Positions 76-4,367 of a DNA stretch of 38,297 nucleotides are shown here, in pieces (within the stretch, counting starts at the first letter, position 1; each line of letters starts with the position of its first letter). The stretch covers positions 9,754 to 48,050 of the forward strand of contig PBMS01000026.1 in the NCBI GenBank assembly GCA_002722695.1. The letters run 5' to 3'. This stretch comes from Methanobacteriota archaeon. GTDB lineage: Archaea; Thermoplasmatota; Poseidoniia; Poseidoniales; Poseidoniaceae. The notes under the pieces are model-generated. The model saw only the letters and a list, made by a program, of their open reading frames with translations, had not been told where the DNA came from and ran no database searches. A program made the translations under genes and the position numbers.

Positions 76-2205
76 TTAGTCTGTGACCTGGACCATGCCG
101 CTGGGCTGGAAGACAAGCATGGTCAGTGTGACGGTCACGGTTTCGCTGTTGTCATTACCGAAAGGACTTCCTTCGTTCGTGTTGAGAGCGACGTCCATGG
201 CCACCGTTCCGATCATTTCAGGAGCTTTGCCGAGCATGGTGAGGATTTCGATGAGTTCGCTTTCCGTTCCGTTCAGTGTGTAGTCTCCCTGACCGTCACT
301 TGCGTACTGATTGAGGTCCGTGTTTGGACGAATGGTGCCGACCACCGTGGTCGTGTCGCAGGCTGTGGTGGACTTTGTCGCATCGTCGCTTTCGGAAAGG
401 GGCCCTGCAAGGCTGCTGTAATCGGGGGTCGTGACGACTTCGTCGCACGCCGCGGTGAAGGTTTCGCCCGTATCGGAATAGGTGATGCTGAGCTCTGCAA
501 TCACCACGCCGGTCATGGTTTCATCGATCGTCACTTCGAAGGTCTGCGTGTCGCCGTCGGACAGGGTAAGTATCTCCTCTTGGGTCCATTCGCTGACCGT
601 GTAGGTCAACTGATACGGGTTGTCTCCCGGGGCGTCCGATGCGTCGGGCGCCACCGCAAGGTAGGTCCCTTCCAAGCTTCCGAACATCATCAATACGGCG
701 GCGGCCCCAATGGCTACGGTTTTTTGCGTGGGAAGGCTGTAGCGTCCAAGGGGATTGGAGTTCGATTCAGCTCGTCTCCAGCAGAGGATGAAGTGCGTTG
801 CAAAGGCGGCGCTCATGGCGGGTATGGACGGGAAGATGTCCTCGCCGTAGCCGCTGAGGCTCCATACGATGACGGCACTCATGGCGGCCGTCATCATCCA
901 AACCGTGTGTTCGGTGTCGGGTTCGTAACCCATCATTCGAACGAGAAGAAGCGGAACGAAAATGCCTCCAAGGCCGTACACGGCCAAAACGACCAGGGCG
1001 AACACGGAATCCCCGAATCCCGGAAATCTCTGTCCGACAAGCGCAATCAGCGTCACGAAGATGGCGACAGCGATCGTGACCAGCTTTGCAGCCATGTGGT
1101 CTTGACTCCACTCGGGCTTGACGTCGTCGGTGATGGCGGCGGTGCAGGCAAGCACTTGGCTGTCGGCGGTGGACATGGTTGCAGCGAAGATGGACGCCAA
1201 AATCACACCGGCGAGGAAGGGGTTCAACACTTCCATCGCCAGCAACGGTAGACCGTCCTGGGCATCGGATGCATCGAGGTCAAGGAAGATGGCTCTGCAC
1301 GCAAGGCCGATGATGAACATGAGGGCGATGAAGGGTGTTTGCCAAACGAAGAACCAGACGGCGGCTTGCTTACGGTCGTTGTCGTCTTTGAGCGTCATCA
1401 CCCTCGACACAACCTGCGGCTGACCCGCCACGCCCAGCCCTCCGAGGAAGAACGCACCGATCCACAGCGTCACACCGAACGTCAAATCAGCCGGGAACAG
1501 ATTCACCATGCCCGGGTCAATGTCCCTGAGCGTTCCGTGAAGGCCGGACAAGCCACCCACCTCCGAGACGGCTACGAAGCACAGAATGGTGGAACCGACG
1601 ATCATCACGCAGGATTGTGCCGCATCGGTCCAGATGGAGGCTCGAATACCGCCGGCGTAACAATAGGCAACCACGAGGACGAACCCGATGAGGATTCCAG
1701 CCACTTCGGACCATCCCAACATGGCGCGAAGCGCAACGCCACCCGCCACGAGTTGGGCGGCGGCGTAAATAGCGAGGAAGAAGACCGAGAGGACACCTGC
1801 AAGTTTGGCTTCGGGCGCCCCGGTGGTTTTCGAAACCAAGGAGGAAAGCGAACGCACGCCTCGCTCGCTGCCTTCCTTCTGAATGAATTTGTAAATCCAA
1901 ATCCAAGCGACGGCCTGGCCGAGGGTGGACACAAGACCGATCCAAAGCCCCGAATACCCTTGGACAAAAATGAACCCGATGAACCCGATGAACATGTAGC
2001 CTGAGTTCCACGTGCTGACCGCACTCAACGCCGCCAACGCGGGGTGCATGCCGCGTCCCGCAACCAGATAATCATCGGTCGTGTCTTGTTTGACTCGCAT
2101 GGAAGCCAAGCCCACGCCAGCGAAGAATCCCATGAACAACAGGAAGGAGAGCACCAAGACGATTTCGTCTGGAAGACCGAACATGTTCACGCACTCCGTC
2201 GCCAA
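76..2205 (-). CDS. Sodium:solute symporter (SSS / PutP-like) with an extra C-terminal beta-rich domain
   Basis: 709-aa ORF with many TM segments; SSS-like motifs (DDYLVAGRGMHPALAALSAVSTWNSGYMFIGFIGFIF, GGIRASIWTDAAQSCVMIVGS, LGGLGVAGQPQVVSRVMTLKD). About 190 non-TM residues follow the last TM segment. Confidence 0.88.
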   Translation of the reverse strand: MATECVNMFGLPDEIVLVLSFLLFMGFFAGVGLASMRVKQDTTDDYLVAGRGMHPALAALSAVSTWNSGYMFIGFIGFIFVQGYSGLWIGLVSTLGQAVAWIWIYKFIQKEGSERGVRSLSSLVSKTTGAPEAKLAGVLSVFFLAIYAAAQLVAGGVALRAMLGWSEVAGILIGFVLVVAYCYAGGIRASIWTDAAQSCVMIVGSTILCFVAVSEVGGLSGLHGTLRDIDPGMVNLFPADLTFGVTLWIGAFFLGGLGVAGQPQVVSRVMTLKDDNDRKQAAVWFFVWQTPFIALMFIIGLACRAIFLDLDASDAQDGLPLLAMEVLNPFLAGVILASIFAATMSTADSQVLACTAAITDDVKPEWSQDHMAAKLVTIAVAIFVTLIALVGQRFPGFGDSVFALVVLAVYGLGGIFVPLLLVRMMGYEPDTEHTVWMMTAAMSAVIVWSLSGYGEDIFPSIPAMSAAFATHFILCWRRAESNSNPLGRYSLPTQKTVAIGAAAVLMMFGSLEGTYLAVAPDASDAPGDNPYQLTYTVSEWTQEEILTLSDGDTQTFEVTIDETMTGVVIAELSITYSDTGETFTAACDEVVTTPDYSSLAGPLSESDDATKSTTACDTTTVVGTIRPNTDLNQYASDGQGDYTLNGTESELIEILTMLGKAPEMIGTVAMDVALNTNEGSPFGNDNSETVTVTLTMLVFQPSGMVQVTD

Positions 2206-3056
2206 CGAGCAAGGGCCTTCTCTTCAACCTCACCCGTGCTTGCAGGGAAAAGCAGACAATTCAAGCGGCCCCCCGGCTCTGCGCTCAACGCCCCCACGGT
2301 GGTGGTGACGATGCGTTGCTCCGGCGTCCCCATGTCGGAACACAACACAACGGGGACGTCGTCCAACGGGCGCTCGAAATAGGCGGTTTGCATTGACGAA
2401 CGCGCCATCGATTCAGGCGTTGAATCCGCCGAATGGTTGTCGTCGCTCTCGGCAAGCTTCTTCCACATCGCTCGCATCGATTCAACCGCATCGGCCGGGG
2501 TCATCGGGCGTTGGTCGCCAACCCCTTGCCCCGTTGGGTCGAGATCGAGGAGCACCAAGGTGTGGAGGTGCTGTCCCCAGTTGGCGATCAACACTTCGAG
2601 GGGCGAGGTGGCGATCCACGTCCCGTACGGGTACGTGAAGGTTGTTTGACGTCCAAATTTGTAGTTTGATAGACCTGCGGCCCCGGTGACCAACGAGGTG
2701 ATGGAAACGCCGTGAAACACCCTGCACGCCACCTCTGCTTCACGGGCTCGGAGTTGAAGATCCACGTGTGTTGTGGCCTGCAGGGGATCACCGACCACCA
2801 ACAGCGCCACCAACGACGTCTTCGCCAGCGCCAGCAGCGCTTGAGGCTGTTCGACATCAGGGCGCATCACGCGTTCAATGGGGCCGACGGTTGCTTCCAA
2901 CCGATTCAATTCTTCGTCAGGCCACAGTGCGGTGTAGGCTTCGTATCGGCGATGGTCGGCGAGCCTCGCTGCTTCCAAAGCCTCGAGCGTCATGCCCTCT
3001 TTCCGTCCCATGCCCATACCGATGAGCAACAACCCCGTCTCAGGCAGTGAATTCAT
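2187..3056 (-). CDS. dphB: Diphthine synthase (Dph5/DphB family)
   Basis: ORF 2187..3116; the likely start MNSLPETGLLLIGMGMG is at 3056. Motifs VVGDPLQATTHVDLQLRA, YKFGRQTTFTYPYGTW, SPLEVLIANWGQHLHTLVLLDLDP are typical of diphthine synthase. Confidence 0.88.
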   Translation of the reverse strand: MNSLPETGLLLIGMGMGRKEGMTLEALEAARLADHRRYEAYTALWPDEELNRLEATVGPIERVMRPDVEQPQALLALAKTSLVALLVVGDPLQATTHVDLQLRAREAEVACRVFHGVSITSLVTGAAGLSNYKFGRQTTFTYPYGTWIATSPLEVLIANWGQHLHTLVLLDLDPTGQGVGDQRPMTPADAVESMRAMWKKLAESDDNHSADSTPESMARSSMQTAYFERPLDDVPVVLCSDMGTPEQRIVTTTVGALSAEPGGRLNCLLFPASTGEVEEKALARWRRSA

Positions 3057-3114
3057 GTGGGTTTCATCGGCCGCCATGCTCAAACCACCGAGACGCTTGG
3101 AACGTGCGAGGGCC

Positions 3115-4206
3115 ATGCGTCATTTGAGCGTGCCGAGGAACCAAACACAGGTTTGGTTGGAGCGCTGCAAGGCAAACGGATGGCTCGCAGACACGGGGGT
3201 GGTTGCCTTGGACGAGCACCTGCGTGCGATACCGCTCAGCGATGCCGCACCCAACGCAGAGGACGAACGGTGGGAAGGTCACGAGCATGTTGACATGACT
3301 CCAAACGAGCAAAACCCTCAGCACTGGCATCAGCATTTGCCCCCTGAACTTCAGTCTCTACCCGATTCCCTCTGGCCCAGAGCGTACGAACTTCAAGGCG
3401 ACGTCCTTCTGGTCAAGCTGGAAGACGATGTCCTACCTTACGCTCACGCCATGGCGACGGCCATGCTCGACCACATGCCGAACGTACGTCTTGTGTGCGC
3501 GGATGAAGGTGTACATGGTGATTTCCGCGTACGTAATCTTCGCATCTTGGGCAGTCGAGATGGAAGCGCGGAGACCGAGACGACGGTCCGAGAGCACGAC
3601 GCCGTCATCCGAGTTGACCCCGCCTCGGTCTACTTCTCAGCCCGCCTTTCCCAACAGCGCTGGGGCACGTACGAGGCGGTGCAGGCCTTGAGGGAGCGCC
3701 TCGGGCATCCGGTGGTGGTTGCCGACCCGTACGCAGGTGTGGGGCCGGCTTTTCCGTTGCTGTTGAAGCACGAAGGGCTGGTCAGCGGTTATCTGGCTGG
3801 TGATATGAATCCTCGAGCGGTGGAGTTACTCACCGTTAACCTCGATCGTTGGACTCGGAAGTCCACGTCGGTCTTTTCACCGTCGAGCGTGGTGTGCAAG
3901 GACGCCCGCACCTGGAAGGACGAGGAACCCCTTCGAGGAAAGGCCCACGTGGTGTTGGTGAACCTGCCGCACGACAGTTTCGAACATCTCCCTGCTCTTT
4001 TCCCGCTCTTCGACCAGGAGGGCTTGACCCTTTTGCGCGGTTGGGCCATCGTTGAACGAGAATCTCTTCCCTGACGGAAAACTCAGCTGAAGGAAGCGAT
4101 TGAAGCATCAGGCGGTTTGCCAACCGAGACTCACGTTTCCGAGATCAAAGGCTTCTCAACCTCGCGCTGTTTCGTGGTCTTTGAATCGCTCATCGCATGG
4201 GTTTGA
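3115..4206 (+). CDS. trm5: Trm5/Tyw2-family tRNA (guanine37-N1) methyltransferase, interrupted by an in-frame TGA at 4072-4074
   Basis: MRHLSVPRNQTQVWLERCKANGWL...GDFRVRNLRILGS...VADPYAGVGPAFPLLL...GDMNPRAVELLTVNL...VLVNLPHDSFEHL. After ERESLP* the same frame continues RKTQLKEAIEASGGLPTETHVSEIKGFSTSRCFVVFESLIAWV* to 4206, which looks like the normal Trm5-type C-terminus. Confidence 0.78.
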
Positions 4207-4244
4207 AGCGTTCAATTCATGAAGCACCTCTTCGTGTGCGCACC

Positions 4245-4367
4245 ATGAAGAACATCGTGACCTGCACCTGCGGGGCGAAGATCAACATCGCAGGTGTTCC
4301 TCCCCGGAAGGACGGCATCAAGGTATGGTGCAAGGTTTGCGGGACCATCACCGTCCACCACCGGTGA
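4245..4367 (+). CDS. 40-aa zinc-ribbon-like microprotein (CxC ... CxxC)
   Basis: Hand-translated MKNIVTCTCGAKINIAGVPPRKDGIKVWCKVCGTITVHHR*; below the length cutoff of the supplied ORF track. Confidence 0.6.
   Translation: MKNIVTCTCGAKINIAGVPPRKDGIKVWCKVCGTITVHHR

Follow-up and report, generated by a model that had tools for sequence, protein, structure and literature searches.

The in-frame TGA that interrupts a Trm5-like tRNA(G37) methyltransferase gene in a Poseidoniales draft genome is best explained, with a probability of about 94%, as an isolated single-base nonsense change in that one genome, arising either as an error in the assembled consensus or as a recent null allele. The codon lies in frame at positions 4072-4074, it is unique among the relatives compared, the tail behind it is intact, and no recoding signature was found. 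Both halves of this explanation are ordinary, and readthrough and the other alternatives are together improbable. The case carries a caution, as a lone stop in a draft genome can make a key gene look truncated or recoded, whereas its relatives and a scan across the genome reveal an isolated one-base change.

The window, meaning the whole 38,297-nucleotide stretch that was analysed, corresponds to positions 9754-48050 of contig C26, which places the TGA at C26:13825. The genome is a 1,628,016-base draft in 50 contigs, is 70.7% complete, and belongs to the Poseidoniales (Marine Group II); its relatives are Poseidonia and other Candidatus Poseidoniales of Marine Group II.

Gene model

The features discussed below are as follows:

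2992-3114, forward strand: 5' extension of the listed ORF, outside the gene; open, antisense to the gene at 2187-3116, with stops in relatives
3115-4206, forward strand: Trm5-like tRNA(G37) methyltransferase gene of 363 codons plus stop, with one TGA interruption; homologous to 29 congeneric copies
4072-4074, forward strand: in-frame TGA at codon 320; a sense codon in 29 of 29 congeneric copies, GGN in the closest
4075-4203, forward strand: post-stop tail of 43 codons, homologous and undecayed; it codes for the final two strands of the methyltransferase domain and for most of its last helix
4204-4206, forward strand: natural stop TGA; most congeneric orthologues stop at this codon too, and AGC usually comes next in them as well

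The reading frame of the Trm5-like ORF was confirmed to run through the first TGA, which is followed by CGG, and to stay open up to the second TGA with no frameshift. The original prediction described a convincing C-terminus in this continuation, and in every congeneric orthologue the C-terminus indeed aligns with the translated sequence, RKTQLKEAIEASGGLPTETHVSEIKGFSTSRCFVVFESLIAWV. As the continuation shows homology in addition to being open, the observation stands well beyond chance.

The ATG at 2992 was rejected as the start in favour of the ATG at 3115, which begins the sequence MRHLSVP conserved in all copies. Homology to relatives is consistent from MRHL onward, and the 41 codons with which the listed ORF begins are antisense to the neighbouring gene at 2187-3116 and contain stops in several relatives. 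Apparent in-frame stops in the relatives' matches were likewise set aside; in directly readable loci they sit in this 5' extension, upstream of the true start. With a query begun at the real gene start, no congeneric relative showed an interior stop.

Codon 320 and the gene end in relatives

Orthologues were collected from a genus set of 30 genomes, 29 of which gave a match, yielding 29 copies from 28 other genomes in addition to the window's own. A single-sequence scan of genome contigs gave no match; an alignment-based scan succeeded. The comparison of the codon in close relatives, proposed in the original prediction, returned a sense codon in every congeneric copy and a stop in the window copy only. 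The residue at this site is variable (Gly in 6 copies, Gln in 6, Glu in 5, Ala in 4, Thr in 3, Ser in 2, and Arg, Lys and Asp in 1 each) and is never Cys or Trp among the 29 copies. The copies with Gly include those of the four nearest genomes; the codon is GGT in the nearest relative and GGA or GGG in others nearby, so the simplest history is a one-base change in a Gly codon. The ancestral codons suggested earlier as examples, CGA or TGG, differ from those of the closest relatives, with GGN (Gly) in six copies from nearer relatives. The nearest of the intact Poseidoniales orthologues (examples are MED790, IN1219 and UBA8339) are about 68-73% identical to the window gene and share its length, its end and the bases that follow, but at the position of the window's TGA they carry a sense codon, which is GGN in the nearest.

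In the alignment, the stop of most congeneric orthologues coincides with the window's second TGA, and AGC usually comes next. A wider comparison took in 80 loci; the motif DPYAGVGP allowed 77 to be read, and in all 77 the stop falls 159-173 codons after this motif. Counted in the same way, the first TGA of the window lies at 116 and the second at 160. The ends of the relatives thus match the second TGA, and the window gene is a gene of 363 codons that is broken once. The original prediction had reserved the case that relatives naturally end at the first TGA, and none does so among the congeneric copies or the 77 readable loci of the wider set.

Divergence of the tail was compared with that of an intact sister copy (L034). 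Measured against four outgroups, the dN of the tail is 0.26-0.33 in the window copy and, if anything higher, 0.35-0.38 in the sister; identity to the outgroups is similar, and the conserved (V/I)KGFST motif is kept. The tail after the TGA has thus not decayed. Because it is no more diverged than that of the sister, any mutation would be recent, and an undecayed tail implies that the stop is very recent, is absent from the living population, or is read through.

These data bear directly on the reading in which the first TGA is the natural end of the protein in this lineage, leaving the tail as a fossil or as a gene of its own. The stop itself is the one point in its favour, and this reading is hardly credible given a tail that retains (V/I)KGFST, evolves like that of the intact sister, and supplies the two closing strands of the domain along with the greater part of its last helix.

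Programmed or basal readthrough, in which an amino acid would be inserted at a leaky UGA-C to give both a short and a full-length enzyme, is favoured by the tail, which is intact and not accelerated. A C directly follows the TGA, the gene is probably important, and at so variable a codon the protein could accept nearly any inserted residue. The stop, however, is conserved in 0 of 29 congeneric copies and in none of the wider relatives, hence there is no conserved programme; TGA is also the usual stop codon in this genome, the scan for interior stops turned up no further case of this kind, and the short form would be without core strands of the fold. Readthrough is therefore considered very unlikely. 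The same slight chance is given to a lineage-specific form, natural suppression at UGA-C by which one Poseidoniales species would maintain the function of a probably essential tRNA methyltransferase. If true, it would represent an unusual instance of a core archaeal tRNA enzyme relying on stop-codon suppression.

Search for UGA recoding

TGA is the stop codon of 462 of the 602 long ORFs in the genome. As it ends most long ORFs, TGA is not reassigned. The Sec machinery named in the original prediction as a possible check was sought, as tRNA-Sec and SepSecS, in the window's own genome and 57 relatives, and neither was found. No tRNA-Sec match above the gathering score was obtained in these 58 genomes, of which 19 are at least 90% complete and the window's own is 70.7% complete; the best three candidates in the latter are tRNA-Leu(taa), tRNA-Gly(tcc) and tRNA-Arg(tcg). 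SepSecS likewise gave no match over the cut-off in the 58 genomes, while the Methanocaldococcus jannaschii control was positive.

Selenocysteine insertion or another recoding of UGA is strongly disfavoured, more so than any other alternative. The identity of the codon as TGA is its sole support, and it is opposed by these searches and by the complete lack of Cys or Trp at the site in congeneric copies. Known archaeal readthrough and selenocysteine genes resemble the window gene in having an in-frame TGA; the window gene differs in that the stop is unconserved, the site is without Cys or Sec in relatives, and Sec machinery was not found.

Trm5 identity and predicted effect of truncation

Assignment to the Trm5/TYW2 family was based on profile matches to the methyltransferase domain (PF02475, 30.7 bits, cut-off 28) and the matching N-terminal domain (PF25133, 42.4 bits, cut-off 27.7). 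The NCBIfam Trm5b equivalog model gave 66.6 bits against a cut-off of 600, and the gene is consequently called Trm5-like and is not filed as the equivalog. Structural comparison was made with an AlphaFold model of the close, intact orthologue L035 (pLDDT 91.2), which does not represent the truncated window product. The best structure match of this model is Trm5b (5yac, E 1.2e-23), and the top 13 PDB matches are all Trm5. Pyrococcus abyssi Trm5b (5yac) and M. jannaschii Trm5 (2yx1, 2zzm and 2zzn) share the fold over nearly the whole chain at about 20% identity. As in archaeal Trm5, the AdoMet-motif region is present (DPYAGVGP), whereas the window gene is very divergent and carries an in-frame stop at codon 320.

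Arg145 and Asn265 of M. jannaschii Trm5 have roles in recognising G37 (PMC5372744). The Arg of FRVR, invariant as R138, aligns with Arg145, and the Asn of NLPH (N283) is the invariant equivalent of Asn265 in the NPPY-type motif, the second motif position being Leu versus the stated I or P. Both the catalytic Asn and the Arg equivalents lie upstream of the TGA and are intact in sequence.

In the L035 model, residue 320 is inside a helix (315-331) that is followed by two strands (334-346 and 351-362). Truncation at residue 319 would deprive the Rossmann-type methyltransferase domain of this last helix and of both strands after it. As the lost strands close the catalytic-domain sheet, the short protein is probably not functional; if the stop is real, the truncated enzyme would most likely be misfolded and inactive.

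Deficiency in m1G37 leads to severe growth defects (PMC5372744). The window gene is the only Trm5-type match in the assembly; a second Trm5 was not found there, and the other PF02475 gene is closest to Taw2. The point made in the original prediction, that truncation would be surprising for a Trm5 enzyme, accordingly holds. That other gene (L001:862-2085, contig C47 of the same genome) has a GLLPSSE motif in place of NLPH, and its best NCBIfam match is Taw2, below the cut-off of that model. Its presence suggests wyosine-type modification in the lineage.

Interior stops elsewhere in the genome and consensus quality

Parts of two related genomes (G004 and G013) were used as tblastn queries against stretches of the window's own genome amounting to 1.42 Mb, overlaps included. 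Unfiltered scans were swamped by shadow frames and leaders; the filtered version was usable and covered approximately 154,000 aligned residues. It returned 12 stop-site rows representing 11 distinct sites, one being the window TGA and one a natural gene end (L121:1096). The remaining sites, sorted by eye, are mostly located in 5' leaders, immediately ahead of a conserved Met; a few come from weak or short matches. No second convincing interior stop was found in the approximately 154,000 residues, and as the sole convincing case in the scan, the window TGA looks like an isolated event. A codon-bias scan for interrupted genes was too weak, as the tail of the window gene scores 1.9 and would go unflagged.

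Single ambiguous bases occur on many contigs in clusters within about 20-250 bases, and these probably mark joins between contigs of different samples. Any gene that spans such a cluster should be read with care, and the clusters indicate that the consensus is imperfect. One cluster, C26:9515-9689, lies just upstream of the window start. Two close relatives, IN1219 and MED790, carry isolate names in what we take to be the style of a Tara Oceans MAG set. Contigs of that set were merged with Minimus2 at a minimum identity of 95% (PMC5769542). On this contig, the closest cluster that was found lies about 4.1 kb upstream of the TGA, which puts the codon outside any visible merge zone; at this distance, merging serves as background and not as proof.

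Among the three options raised in the original prediction, nonsense mutation and sequencing error both fit these data, while programmed readthrough gains no support, given relatives without the stop, a variable residue, TGA as the main stop and no Sec machinery found. For the preferred reading of an isolated single-base change, the ancestral codon at this variable site was probably Gly (GGN), and one changed base would have given TGA. The wrong base may have entered the assembled consensus, or the mutation may be a recent one in the sampled population, in which case translation would end at residue 319.

We infer that a wrong base in the consensus is the somewhat likelier half, favoured a little over even odds. 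It is weighed slightly above a null allele because the gene occurs in nearly all relatives and is apparently single, and because the last helix and two strands would be lost from the only Trm5-type gene. Having just one such match in the assembly argues against a tolerated null. Such stops are rare in the genome, and a general rate of error thus gives no particular reason to expect one in this gene. A recent true null allele in the sampled population is a serious contender at somewhat below even odds.

Downstream sequence

Directly downstream, at 4245-4367, lies a small 40-residue protein of the CxC...CxxC type, MKNIVTCTCGAKINIAGVPPRKDGIKVWCKVCGTITVHHR. A similar ORF start (such as MENIVKC or MDNIVKCEC) follows the Trm5-like gene in many congeneric relatives in which downstream sequence was seen. 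In much of the genus, the bases at 4204-4224, from the natural stop on (TGA AGC GTT CA...TTCATGAAGC), show conservation although they are noncoding for the Trm5-like gene; they may be part of a promoter or leader for the small gene that follows.
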